Shown here: positions 15,314 through 18,759 of the stretch, in pieces | How positions within the stretch are numbered: the stretch's first letter is position 1 | Layout: each line of letters opens with the position of its first letter | DNA from: Rhizobacter sp. | GTDB taxonomy: Bacteria; Pseudomonadota; Gammaproteobacteria; Burkholderiales; Burkholderiaceae_C | Reading direction: 5' to 3' | Assembly: GCA_021153565.1 (NCBI GenBank) | Contig: JAJKJU010000025.1 | Location: 1 to 32,088 of the forward strand | DNA: 32,088 bases | The notes under the pieces: model-generated | Told to the model about the DNA's origin: nothing | What the model saw: only the letters and a program-made list of their open reading frames with translations | Database searches by the model: none | Translations under genes and position numbers: made by a program

Positions 15314-15999
15314 GACTCGCCGTCATTCCGGCGCGCGGCGGCAGCAAGCGCATTCCGCGCAAGAACGTGCGCTTGTTCCACGGCAAACCGATGATCGCTT
15401 ATGCGATCGCGACAGCACAGGCCAGTGGCTTGTTCGACGATGTACTGGTCTCCACGGATGATGCGGAGATTGCTGAAGTCGCGCGCGAGCACGGGGCGCT
15501 CACGCCCTTCACTCGCCCATCGGAACTGGCCGACGATCAAACGCCGACAGTCCCCGTGATCGCCCACGCCATCACGGCGGTCCGCAGACTCGGCTTGCGC
15601 GTCGAGCAAGTTTGCTGCATTTACCCCGGCGTTCCATTGCTGCTGCCAGGCACCATCGCGCAAGCACTTGAGTTACTGGGGCCGGCTCACTACGTGTTCC
15701 CCGTCATCCCGTTTCCTTCGCCGATCCAGCGCGCGCTGCGCCGAGATGCAAGCGGTAGTACCACGCCCTTCCACCCCGAATGCGCCGAGACACGCACTCA
15801 GGATCTGGAGCCTGCCTTCCACGACGCCGGACAGTTCTATTGGGGCGAAGCGCAGACTTGGGTCGAAGGGAAGAGCCTGCACGGGAACGCGGTCAGCATC
15901 GTGCTGCCTGCGTCGCGTGCGATCGACATCGACACTCCGGCCGACTGGGAGCACGCCGAGGCACTGTATCAAGCACTCCGCACGGGCGTGACGTCATGA
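15310..15999 (+). CDS. pseF: Pseudaminic acid cytidylyltransferase
   Basis: A 229-aa CMP-sialic-acid-synthetase-like enzyme that activates free pseudaminic acid with CTP, the last step of the pathway. The N terminus has the nucleotide-binding motif IPARGGSKRIPRKN (6-19), followed by STDDAEIAEVA. The start is a GTG at 15310 overlapping the pseC stop (GTGA). It gives [14 protein letters not shown] with no missing residues. Gene order (before pseG and pseI) does not follow the reaction order, which is common in these clusters. Confidence 0.94.
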
Positions 16000-17075
16000 A
16001 GATTGCATTCCGCGTCGACGCATCGTCCGATATCGGCACCGGCCATGTTCGACGCTGCCTCTCGCTTGCCGCCGCGCTTCGCCGCCGCGGTGTGAACTCT
16101 TTTTTCGTGACCCGCGACCTGGGGGTGGCGGCGTTCGCGCAAATACGTGCCGAGGACTTCGGATCATTCGTACTTCCCGCTCCCGGGCCCAACGACCGAT
16201 GGAACCATGTCGAGATACCCCACGCGGCATGGGCCGGTGTGGCCTGGGAGACAGACGCCGAGCAGACCATCGCGGCGCTGCGCTCGTCTCCACCCGACTG
16301 GCTCGTCATCGATCACTACAGCTTCGATGCTCGCTGGCACCGGCGCGTCGCGACCGCATTGGGCTGCCAGATTGCCGTCATCGACGACCTCGGAGATCGG
16401 ATGCTGGACGCCGATCTGCTCGTTGACCACAACGTGAGCGTAGACCATCGAGCCAAGTATCACGGTCGACTGCCTGCCCATTCGGCCATGCTGACCGGCC
16501 CGACGTACGCGTTGCTCGGGCCTGCCTACGCAGACGCGGCACGCCACGTGGTGCGCCACGACGTTCGCAGCATAGGCATCTTCATGGGGGGAATCGACCA
16601 GGGCAACTACAGCAGCATGGCACTATCCGCATGCCGCGAAGGATCTGCCTTCGACGGCGAGATCGAAATCGTCAGCACGAGGTCTAATCCGAACCTGTAC
16701 GCGCTGGAGCAGGCCGTGACGCGCTGGCCGAAAACGCGACTCACGCTCGATTTGGCGGACCTCGCAGCCTTCTTCGCCCGCCACGATCTCCAGGTTGGCG
16801 CTGCAGGGGGCGCGATGTGGGAACGCTGCTGTATCGGTGCGCCGACCTTGGCTATTAGCGTCGCCGACAACCAGCAGCAGGTCCTGATGCCGCTGGCGAA
16901 CCTTGGCGTCGTGAGCACCCTCGACGTGCCGTCGGTCGACCCATACGGGTTGACCAGCGCACTGAGGGCATTGATTGGCAACGCTGTCCTTCGGCAACGC
17001 CTCAGCGACCGGGCCAAGGGTCTGGTCGACGGCCTGGGCGCTCGGCGGGTCGCGGAATACCTCGTTCGACCATGA
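15996..17075 (+). CDS. pseG: UDP-2,4-diacetamido-2,4,6-trideoxy-beta-L-altropyranose hydrolase
   Basis: A 359-aa GT-B-like (MurG-like) hydrolase that removes UDP to give the free 2,4,6-trideoxy sugar used by PseI. His17 in DIGTGHVRRCLSLA matches the known catalytic His of C. jejuni PseG. GGAMWERCCIGAPTLAI is the C-terminal UDP-binding part. The ATG at 15996 is chosen because it overlaps the pseF stop and gives MKIAFRVDASSDIGTGH. A longer frame to 15780 lies inside pseF. The protein is longer than Campylobacter PseG (about 274 aa), but no GNAT-type PseH domain is recognisable in the C-terminal part. Confidence 0.93.
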   Translation: MKIAFRVDASSDIGTGHVRRCLSLAAALRRRGVNSFFVTRDLGVAAFAQIRAEDFGSFVLPAPGPNDRWNHVEIPHAAWAGVAWETDAEQTIAALRSSPPDWLVIDHYSFDARWHRRVATALGCQIAVIDDLGDRMLDADLLVDHNVSVDHRAKYHGRLPAHSAMLTGPTYALLGPAYADAARHVVRHDVRSIGIFMGGIDQGNYSSMALSACREGSAFDGEIEIVSTRSNPNLYALEQAVTRWPKTRLTLDLADLAAFFARHDLQVGAAGGAMWERCCIGAPTLAISVADNQQQVLMPLANLGVVSTLDVPSVDPYGLTSALRALIGNAVLRQRLSDRAKGLVDGLGARRVAEYLVRP

Positions 17076-17719
17076 AACTTGTCAGCATTCTTTGCACCGA
17101 TCCGGCGCATCCGATCAACCCGTGGCTCCAACGTTGGGCGCACGCGCATGCGTCACGCGCGCACACGGCAATTGAGCGCGACTTCCGCAATCTTCCCGGT
17201 GGCGACATCCTGTTCCTGGTTTCGTGCCATCAGATCATCCGCAAGCCCGTTCGTGACCTGTACCGCCATACGCTCGTGCTCCATGCGAGCGCACTACCCG
17301 AAGGTCGCGGCATGTCGCCGCACATCTGGCAGATATTGCAAGGCTGCGAACGCCTAATGGTCACATTGCTCAACGCTGAGGATGAATTGGATTCAGGCGA
17401 CATCTGGCACCAGGTGGAACTGCACTTGGACGGCACGGACCTGCACGACGATATCAACGCCAAGCTGTTCGACGCCGAGTTGGCGCTCATGACCTGGGCC
17501 ATGGACCACTGCGACAGCGCCGAGCCGCGCAAGCAGAGCGGCACGCCGAGCTTCTTCCGCAAGCGCTTGCCCGAAGACAGCCGCATTGACCCCTCCCGCG
17601 CTCTGAACGAGCAGTTCGACTTGCTGAGGGTGGCGGACCCGGAGCGCTATCCGGCATTTTTCGAGTACCGTGGCCAAACCTACCGCATCCGCATCGACAA
17701 ACTGAACCGCCCATCATGA
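17072..17719 (+). CDS. Formyltransferase-like protein in the pseudaminic acid cluster
   Basis: A 215-aa protein with a formyltransferase-type core: LVLHASALPEGRGMSP (68-83) and LDSGDIWHQ (106-114) correspond to the N-x-H-x-S-LLP and D-x-G motifs of Fmt, ArnA and sugar N-formyltransferases, which use 10-formyl-tetrahydrofolate. The catalytic His (71) and Asp (107) are present. The usual Asn two places before the His is Val69, perhaps a trait of this subfamily. It sits, with 4-nt overlaps, between pseG and pseI, where pseH would be expected. The best reading is an N-acyl (formyl) transferase acting on the 4-amino group of the PseC product. The function is inferred from position and fold and has not been shown. 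Confidence 0.65.
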   Translation: MKLVSILCTDPAHPINPWLQRWAHAHASRAHTAIERDFRNLPGGDILFLVSCHQIIRKPVRDLYRHTLVLHASALPEGRGMSPHIWQILQGCERLMVTLLNAEDELDSGDIWHQVELHLDGTDLHDDINAKLFDAELALMTWAMDHCDSAEPRKQSGTPSFFRKRLPEDSRIDPSRALNEQFDLLRVADPERYPAFFEYRGQTYRIRIDKLNRPS

Positions 17720-18759
17720 TCACCATCCAAGACCGCAAGATCGGCGCACTCGCGCGCCCCTACGTGATCGCCGAGATGTCGGGCAATCACAACCAGTCGC
17801 TTGAGCGCGCCCTGGCGATCGTGGATGCGGCGGCCCGGGCTGGCGCCGACGCCATCAAACTGCAGACCTATACCGCCGAAACCATGACGCTAGACGTCTC
17901 GGCACCCGGCTTTGTTGTTGACGACGAGAAGAGCCTGTGGGCAGGGCGACAGTTGTTCGATCTGTATCGCGAAGCCCACACGCCATGGGAATGGCACAAG
18001 CCGATCATGGAACGGGCGGCCTCGCACGGCCTTCATTGCTTCAGCACGCCTTTCGACGAAACCGCCGTCGATCTCCTCGAATCGCTGGAAGTACCGGCTT
18101 ACAAGATCGCCTCCTTCGAGAACACCGACCTGCCGTTGATCCGCAGGGTTGCCGGCACGGGAAAGCCGATGATCATTTCGACAGGCATGGCGACCGTCGC
18201 CGAACTCGACGAGACGGTGCGTACGGCGCGCGAAGCCGGCTGTCGCGACTTGGTGCTGCTGAAGTGCACCAGCACGTACCCATCAACGCCGCAGAACACC
18301 AATATCCTGACGATTCCTCACATGCGGCAGTTGTTTGGATGCGAAGTAGGGCTGTCGGACCACACAATGGGTGTCGGCGTTTCGGTTGCAAGCGTCGCAC
18401 TGGGTGCCACCGTGATCGAAAAGCACTTCACCCTGCGCCGTGCGGACGGCGGCGTCGACTCCACTTTCTCGCTGGAACCGAACGAGATGGAGAGCCTTGT
18501 AATCGAGACCGAGCGAGCTTGGCAGGCATTGGGTCAGGTCTTCTATGGCGCGACCGCCGGTGAAAAGAAGTCCACGATGTTTCGCCGCTCGCTCTACGTC
18601 ACCTGCGACATGAAGGCCGGCGACGTTCTCGACGTGCAATCGCTGCGAGCAATTCGGCCGGGCTTCGGCCTCCCTACCAAGTACGCGGGCGTCTTTCTCG
18701 GAAAACGAGTCACGCGAGACATCAGCAAGGGCACCCCGGTCACCTGGGACCTGATCTAG
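17716..18759 (+). CDS. pseI: Pseudaminic acid synthase
   Basis: A 347-aa NeuB-family enzyme that condenses the 2,4,6-trideoxy-L-altrose derivative with phosphoenolpyruvate to give pseudaminic acid. The TIM-barrel part includes IAEMSGNHNQSLERA, AIKLQTYT, YKIASFE and EKHFTL. DGGVDSTFSLEP points to PseI rather than NeuB or LegI. The C-terminal ~65 residues (FRRSLYVTCDMKAGD onward) are the antifreeze-like SAF domain. The ATG overlaps the previous stop by 4 nt. This gene fixes the pathway as pseudaminic rather than legionaminic or sialic acid. Confidence 0.94.
   Translation: MITIQDRKIGALARPYVIAEMSGNHNQSLERALAIVDAAARAGADAIKLQTYTAETMTLDVSAPGFVVDDEKSLWAGRQLFDLYREAHTPWEWHKPIMERAASHGLHCFSTPFDETAVDLLESLEVPAYKIASFENTDLPLIRRVAGTGKPMIISTGMATVAELDETVRTAREAGCRDLVLLKCTSTYPSTPQNTNILTIPHMRQLFGCEVGLSDHTMGVGVSVASVALGATVIEKHFTLRRADGGVDSTFSLEPNEMESLVIETERAWQALGQVFYGATAGEKKSTMFRRSLYVTCDMKAGDVLDVQSLRAIRPGFGLPTKYAGVFLGKRVTRDISKGTPVTWDLI

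Follow-up and report, generated by a model that had tools for sequence, protein, structure and literature searches.

The window analysed here, a stretch of 32,088 nucleotides from Rhizobacter sp. (contig JAJKJU010000025.1 of assembly GCA_021153565.1), carries an operon for pseudaminic acid (Pse) biosynthesis at positions 13167-18759, in which pseB, pseC, pseF, pseG, a gene for a formyltransferase of 215 amino acids (FT) and pseI follow one another in this order. Very likely, FT replaces the acetyltransferase PseH and formylates the PseC product, with 7-N-formyl-Pse as the predicted product. A first-pass annotation of the window had proposed this reaction; comparison with other pse loci lends support to the prediction through the conserved slot, the repeated exchange with PseH-like proteins and the lack of a recognisable PseH. 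PseH has the GNAT fold and uses acetyl-CoA, while formyltransferases have an unrelated fold and use 10-formyl-tetrahydrofolate. In the pathway that we infer, with its cofactor, substrate and product, FT would stand in PseH's place. The formyl group of 10-formyl-tetrahydrofolate would be passed to the C4 amine that the UDP-sugar receives from PseC, and the resulting compound would be UDP-2-acetamido-4-formamido-2,4,6-trideoxy-beta-L-altrose. PseG would strip off UDP, PseI would condense the sugar with phosphoenolpyruvate and PseF would activate it to CMP-Pse5Ac7Fo, the 7-N-formyl derivative. The latter would be used for a surface polysaccharide, with a flippase and glycosyltransferases encoded downstream.

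Acyltransferases encoded between pseG and pseI

The placement of FT between pseG and pseI is not a matter of chance, as it recurs in other genomes. The clade to which FT belongs is termed FTA in the following, and a second pse-linked formyltransferase clade FTB. Among 80 loci from named genomes (the best 80 of 338 relatives of FT, with titles that range widely over Proteobacteria, Myxococcales, Verrucomicrobia and further groups), FTA is encoded directly between pseG and pseI in 73, on the same strand and with gaps of less than 400 nucleotides between the domains. In a recount with gaps of up to 4 kb, pseG and pseI were adjacent in 74 of the 80 loci (FTA alone in 72, FTA plus GNAT in two), while three loci were non-adjacent and three incomplete. 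As this set was chosen for FTA, it is no test of exclusion, and a draw of Burkholderiales genomes serves instead. Here, PseG was found above cut-off in 58 of 399 genomes and 59 loci were read, 11 of them incomplete. The 48 remaining slots (fusions included) contained FTA alone in six cases, a GNAT without FTA in 33 (three of these with FTB), both in two and neither in seven; the exclusion of FTA and GNAT is significant at p = 0.003 (Fisher's test, relatedness not corrected for).

FTA and PseH-like GNATs share one slot and are seldom found together. Of the 82 loci with an FT-type protein in the slot, 78 have no other recognised acyltransferase there, and no GNAT of at least 60 bits was present in the fetched stretches of the 78 FTA-alone loci. 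Weak GNAT matches (26-42 bits) occur outside the slot in seven named FTA loci, and an open reading frame (ORF) in L057 was flagged by a small PseH profile used earlier; all of these were taken as putatively unrelated transferases. In the seven loci with neither enzyme, reading of the ORFs revealed no formyltransferase. In three of them (L163, L181 and L193) the gap is free of ORFs; in L163 a GNAT of 123 bits is encoded just after pseI. The gaps of L184, L185 and L194 contain, as judged by eye, WbqC-like ORFs and methyltransferases, in L184 and L194 along with others, and that of L152 three other ORFs.

A number of loci encode fusion proteins. L047:8492-10762 and L048:6648-8816 encode PseG-GNAT-FTA proteins of 756 and 722 amino acids, L081:7561-9648 an FTB-PIG-L-FTA protein of 695 amino acids, L210:5640 a GNAT-FTA protein of 406 amino acids and L073:8983-10200 an FTA-GNAT protein of 405 amino acids.

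Repeated exchange of FTA and GNAT

To place the occupants on trees of their neighbours, all filled-slot Burkholderiales loci and every fourth filled-slot locus of the named genomes were used (60 loci, 33 GNAT and 27 FTA; IQ-TREE). Loci with both enzymes were scored as FTA, and empty, incomplete or non-adjacent loci were dropped. Parsimony required at least 12 changes of occupant on the PseI tree and at least 13 on the PseG tree, with at least seven on each forced by well-supported branches alone. The bootstrap range for PseI was 11-12 changes, while the PseG bootstrap had not settled. A FastTree analysis of all 115 loci gave 21 FTA changes, 11 of which were forced. Because the occupant label is more clustered than in shuffles (mean of about 20 changes), the exchange of FTA and GNAT appears to be recurrent but not free. 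Related PseI proteins are thus found beside either enzyme, as predicted for a swap at one pathway step; this also has a bearing on the point, raised in the first-pass annotation, that PseG and PseI would need to tolerate the formylated intermediate, a putative property of both. PseH-like GNATs are encoded in the same slot as FTA or fused to PseG, and since the slot is the same, FTA would act at the PseH step of the pathway.

Search for PseH

No GNAT-type PseH had been recognised in the window in the first-pass annotation, which had also proposed a genome search for a separate pseH. PseH (TIGR03585) was not found above cut-off in the Rhizobacter sp. genome, a draft of 381 contigs with a completeness of 91.93%. 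On the contig of the window there was no match even at E values up to 10, and FT itself does not match this model. TIGR03585 is strict: only nine of the 399 genomes of the order pass it, yet GNATs are present in 35 of the 48 slots. Since it misses most GNATs fused to PseG, a broader GNAT profile (A3), made from 33 GNATs of pse loci, was run on 12 genomes. It agreed with TIGR03585 in detecting no GNAT in the window and gave no full-length match in the draft genome. Seven of these genomes have FTA and no GNAT in the cluster; among them, no score exceeded 41 bits (a partial match in the Rhizobacter sp. genome). Four of the seven, namely G150 (1 contig, 100% complete), G020 (3 contigs, 100%), G340 (99%) and G080 (91%), had no match at E values up to 1e-6, and two others, G307 (1 contig, 99%) and G090 (99%), reached only 30-34 bits. 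Three genomes with PseH and two with fusions scored 123-185 bits, which only proves that the search works, because rows from these five genomes are part of the profile.

An acetyl-type PseH might still be encoded on a stretch missing from the 381 contigs, with FT as an extra decoration enzyme. The incomplete draft would allow for this, but better assemblies with FTA are also without PseH (G150, G020 and G340, and, apart from their low-scoring matches, G307 and G090), which makes this explanation extremely unlikely. The best pseH candidate in the draft genome (L001 on contig C68) was rejected. Its match to TIGR03585 (53.7 bits) covers profile positions 75-155 only, it scored higher with PRK10140, a general N-acetyltransferase model (129.6 bits, itself below the cut-off of 236), and its locus contains no recognisable Pse gene according to the ORF list read by eye.

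Family and fold of the formyltransferase

FT matches PF00551 (Formyl_trans_N) with 44.1 bits (cut-off 26.1), and its coordinates place it exactly between pseG and pseI, as annotated before. It is above the cut-off of no NCBIfam model. The AlphaFold2 model of FT (pLDDT 97.3, pTM 0.92) has a full formyltransferase fold. The top match in a fold comparison with the PDB was 1zgh (Z 22.6, 22% identity over 205 residues), followed by HypX (Z 20-21), Fmt (about 19) and sugar N-formyltransferases (about 18-19). All matches listed (50 per comparison) are formyltransferases or contain a formyltransferase domain, and the match to formyltransferases spans the whole length of FT.

In a tree of 54 sequences (IQ-TREE), FTA and FTB each formed one clade (support 98/99 and 100/99, respectively), with other Fmt- and ArnA-like homologues as a third clade and FT outside the FTB clade. 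The PurN of Rhizobacter sp. was left out of this tree, L039 and L021 have long branches and the FTB sequence of L210 (L210_FTB) fills 36% of the columns. FT was found in nine of the 399 genomes of the order, the own genome included (E 8.6e-34 or better, next match 2.0e-14), and in six of the 360 genomes of a class-wide draw, again with the own genome. An alignment of 74 FTA sequences revealed H71, L75, P76, G80, P83, D107 and G109 as invariant, with the HxSxLP...RG context largely conserved.

An origin of FT as a stray methionyl-tRNA formyltransferase paralogue has a negligible probability and was rejected. A weak match to the fmt model TIGR00460 (50 bits) points in this direction, but the cut-off is 201.5, FTA forms a separate clade, and separate Fmt and PurN proteins, both with the normal Asn of the NxH motif, are encoded elsewhere in the genome. 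For the C-terminal part of FT, only a weak match to PF21553 (E 0.0043), below cut-off, was obtained. A PHROGs search with FT resulted in a weak PurN-like match only. A plasmid search retrieved 90 records, all of less than 60% identity and 66 of them from Sinorhizobium; the matches listed (25) cover FT residues 45-209 and read as Fmt-like.

The FTB clade and the target nitrogen

A PIG-L/LmbE-type deacetylase is encoded in the cluster of all nine distinct FTB loci (L047, L081, L147, L157, L186, L199, L210, L211 and L212; L131 repeats L147, and L212 is cut by a contig end). Eight of the nine also have a GNAT of at least 60 bits, the ninth being the one cut by the contig end. Among the FTA-alone loci, PIG-L was found in one of 78 (L128, about 7 kb away). 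It was absent from four further FTA loci without GNAT (L213-L216), from the window and its contig, and from 27 GNAT rows of an 'RN' subtype. An RN-like GNAT does occur along with FTB and PIG-L in L210 and L211 (subtype of L211 assigned by eye), and PIG-L without either formyltransferase type occurs in L168, L178, L179 and L187.

The simplest reading of this distribution is that PIG-L would expose the C2 nitrogen, to which FTB could then add a second acyl group, while for FTA without PIG-L the C4 amine from PseC would be the only target. The combination of FTB and PIG-L suggests that the other nitrogen is first deacetylated and then acylated anew, with 5-N-formyl Pse as a possible product, and the contrast between nine of nine FTB loci and one of 78 FTA-alone loci points to the C4 amine as the target of FTA. 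In the window itself, which is without PIG-L and has PseC as the only DegT-type (PF01041) aminotransferase on its contig, the C4 amine would be the only free amine offered by the locus.

The GNAT of L047, L048 and L081 is of a subtype distinct from 'RN', here called 'WAND', which may transfer a different acyl group or act at another position. 'WAND' GNATs are fused to PseG in L047, L048, L081, L147, L157, L170 and L172, four of which have PIG-L.

Counter-evidence and alternative explanations

Several observations weigh against formylation of the C4 amine by FT in place of PseH. One of them concerns the active site. The standard catalytic set of formyltransferases is Asn-His-Asp, and in the classical mechanism the Asn binds the formyl oxygen. 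FT has V69 where canonical members have the Asn of NxH. Of 89 FTA-family hits, 88 have a readable motif (a few genes fetched twice among them); this position is Val in 86 of these and Ile in the other two. The remaining hit, L052, has an altered motif, also with Val. The Asn is kept in 20 of 23 other homologues, including the own Fmt and PurN, the exceptions being L021 (Gly) and two FTB proteins. By alignment, the Asn-His-Asp set is incomplete in both FTA and FTB, and because the Asn is replaced, formyl transfer by the standard mechanism is not to be assumed; the chemistry of FT would have to proceed on H71 and D107, with V69 in the usual Asn place. The consistent loss of this residue would also fit transfer of a group other than formyl, or a role of FT as hydrolase or scaffold. 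This is very unlikely in view of the invariant His and Asp with most of their sequence context, the whole-length fold match and the many slots in which FT is the sole recognised acyltransferase.

FTA and a clear GNAT are, moreover, found together in five loci (L047, L048, L073, L081 and L210). Three of these exceptions (L047, L081 and L210) fit partly with two nitrogens to be acylated, as PIG-L and FTB are present, though with three acyltransferases; L048 and L073 encode FTA and GNAT without PIG-L and lie outside such an account. The draft, furthermore, is only 92% complete. Finally, contigs C350 (L218) and C352 (L217) each encode one more full-length PF01041 aminotransferase, and C352 also a PIG-L protein (55.5 bits). 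The two aminotransferases scored 386 and 297 bits, below the PseC cut-off of 423.5, and lie among other sugar-nucleotide genes as judged by eye; the organism presumably makes other amino sugars.

The latter genes, together with the apparent devotion of the related FTB to a second nitrogen, would be in line with FT acting on another amine, either the C2 nitrogen (C5 of Pse) or the amine of a different cellular amino sugar. We consider this quite improbable, as the window has no PIG-L, its presence in FTA-alone loci is limited to the distant gene in L128, and the FT gene is located inside the pse operon, as in its relatives, and not on C350 or C352. It is the conserved slot, rather than an absence of other amines, that argues for a function of FT in the Pse pathway.

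Formylation of the C4 amine might also take place later than proposed, either once PseG has released the free 4-amino sugar or on the nonulosonic acid itself, which would still lead to 7-N-formyl-Pse. The FT gene follows pseG, and the proteins of L047 and L048 chain PseG with FT, with the GNAT domain between them. Conversely, PseH-like GNATs share the slot and the type of fusion to PseG, and PseH acts on the UDP-sugar, as PseJ is reported to do (see below). A later step is therefore rather improbable, and transfer to the UDP-sugar is preferred.

Comparison with known systems

Formation of 7-N-formyl-Pse by a formyltransferase is not a new idea, since a PseJ is named in the PDB and 7-formamido-Pse is known. 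PDB entries 6ci2, 6ci4, 6ci5 and 6edk carry the name 'formyltransferase PseJ', which we take to be the Anoxybacillus enzyme formylating the PseC product, i.e. the PseH step on the UDP-sugar. Reportedly, Reimer et al. described PseJ in ACS Chem Biol in 2018 in the Anoxybacillus pathway to 7-formamido-CMP-Pse. The window resembles this pathway in its complete pse operon with a formyltransferase and in the lack of a PseH in the draft, and PseJ shares with FT the assignment to formyltransferases, there with a Pse-pathway name. The proteins themselves differ. In a PDB search with the profile of the 74 FTA sequences, 1zgh (68.6 bits) and ArnA (63.6 bits) ranked first, then Fmt and others, with PseJ far down at 30.9 bits beside LgrA entries and behind many sugar formyltransferases; with FT as single sequence, the E value was 0.011. 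On this evidence, which comes from PDB sequence searches only, FTA appears to be distant kin of PseJ and not its orthologue. PseJ was not among the matches listed (50 each) of two fold comparisons, which proves nothing. The FTA operon is best regarded as a widespread variant, based on a non-orthologous enzyme, of a pathway type already known.

The closest solved structure, 1zgh, is labelled 'methionyl-tRNA formyltransferase' of Clostridium thermocellum. It matched the FTB protein of L047:7758-8495 with 234 bits (phmmer) and is probably a misnamed relative of FTB. Like FTA, 1zgh and FTB are without the Asn of NxH, and FTB genes are located in pse clusters; they differ in forming a separate clade and in the constant association with PIG-L. 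The sugar N-formyltransferases ArnA, VioF, WbkC, FdtF and Rv3404c share the fold with FTA (Z as given above) but use other NDP-amino sugars according to the entry titles and, in alignments, are longer on the N-terminal side of the active-site His.

Parts of the literature bear on the predicted product and its genes. A passage of PMC3210612 lists 5-acetamido-7-formamido-Pse for Pseudoalteromonas polysaccharides, with a reference reporting the natural sugar in 2001, and N-formyl is named among the Pse substituents in a section of PMC6388019. As far as the relevant parts of PMC5109656 go, Geobacillus flagellin islands contain pse genes without PseH, some with fmt genes, and for another sugar the authors infer formylation from fmt3 in the location of an acetyltransferase. 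Passages of PMC7874193 report for Aeromonas both a PseH encoded between pseG and pseI and chimeras of PseG with PseH. The Clostridium passages of PMC13317340 make no mention of formyl. The mono-N-acetyl Pse (274 Da) of Shewanella oneidensis flagellin was dropped as a comparison, as no clear PseG, PseI or PseF is reported in the part of PMC3765264 concerned. Within the open-licence literature, as represented by such passages, no text was found that places a formyltransferase in a proteobacterial pseG-pseI slot, the nearest being PMC5109656 and PMC4875605. Compared to the literature found, what is new is the widespread non-PseJ family without the Asn in the PseH slot, together with the recurrent swapping of this family with PseH and its distinctness from the deacetylase-linked FTB.

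Evenly balanced, in our judgement, is a broader proposal: that FTA is an Asn-less class evolved apart from PseJ and often swapped with PseH, that the likewise Asn-less FTB acts with PIG-L on the other nitrogen, and that FTA, FTB, PIG-L and GNAT form an interchangeable kit setting the N-acyl pattern of Pse at C5 and C7, readable from gene content. Pseudaminic acids are found on flagella and surface polysaccharides and are seen by hosts, phages and antibodies; acetyl or formyl at C7 changes the surface presented to them. If 7-N-formylation by FT holds, the acyl type of Pse would be predictable from one gene, and questions of mechanism would follow, namely how formyl is transferred when the classical Asn is absent and how both acyl groups can be handled by PseG and PseI. 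FT reaches no NCBIfam cut-off, and the related 1zgh/FTB proteins are labelled as methionyl-tRNA formyltransferases.

The operon and its surroundings

The presence of pseB, pseC, pseF, pseG and pseI, joined by overlaps of 4 nucleotides, had been noted in the first-pass annotation and was borne out, as all five gene products exceed their NCBIfam cut-offs (Table 1) and all five junctions of the operon, those of the FT gene included, are 4-nucleotide overlaps by ORF coordinates. PseG matched the solved PseG 3hbm (phmmer, 5.6e-11) and carries neither a fused GNAT nor a fused formyltransferase domain, as judged with the respective profiles.

Table 1. Features of the window, with positions and the basis of assignment
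Feature	Position	Strand	Basis or remark
pseB, UDP-GlcNAc 4,6-dehydratase (inverting)	13167..14168	+	TIGR03589, 544 bits (cut-off 408)
pseC, transaminase making the C4 amine	14165..15313	+	TIGR03588, 547 bits (cut-off 424)
pseF, CMP-Pse synthetase, GTG start	15310..15999	+	TIGR03584, 274 bits (cut-off 206)
pseG, UDP-sugar hydrolase, 359 aa	15996..17075	+	TIGR03590, 247 bits (cut-off 154)
Formyltransferase of FTA type (215 aa), occupying the PseH slot	17072..17719	+	PF00551; AlphaFold2 fold; FTA clade
pseI, pseudaminic acid synthase	17716..18759	+	TIGR03586, 486 bits (cut-off 340)
SAM (S-adenosylmethionine) methyltransferase adjoining pseI	18779..19606	+	PF08241, 1.4e-24
Large ORF	20730..23030		listed with 766 aa; the true start is probably near 21140
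ORF flanking the sugar genes	8848..9579		translation read by eye
ORF flanking the sugar genes	28562..29401		translation read by eye

The SAM methyltransferase gene adjoining pseI has akin genes after pseI in the FTA loci L062, L065, L072, L077 and L110. Its product may modify a sugar or glycan, which would result in methylated Pse or a methylated glycan. The operon is surrounded by GDP-sugar genes and genes for a polysaccharide flippase, methyltransferases and glycosyltransferases (Pfam) as well as rml-like genes (by eye, from translations), and by this gene content the window reads as a surface polysaccharide locus. The large ORF lies among glycosyltransferase genes; it has no Pfam match at 1e-5 and could be a candidate Pse transferase. 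The two ORFs flanking the sugar genes look like parts of HipA-type kinases.

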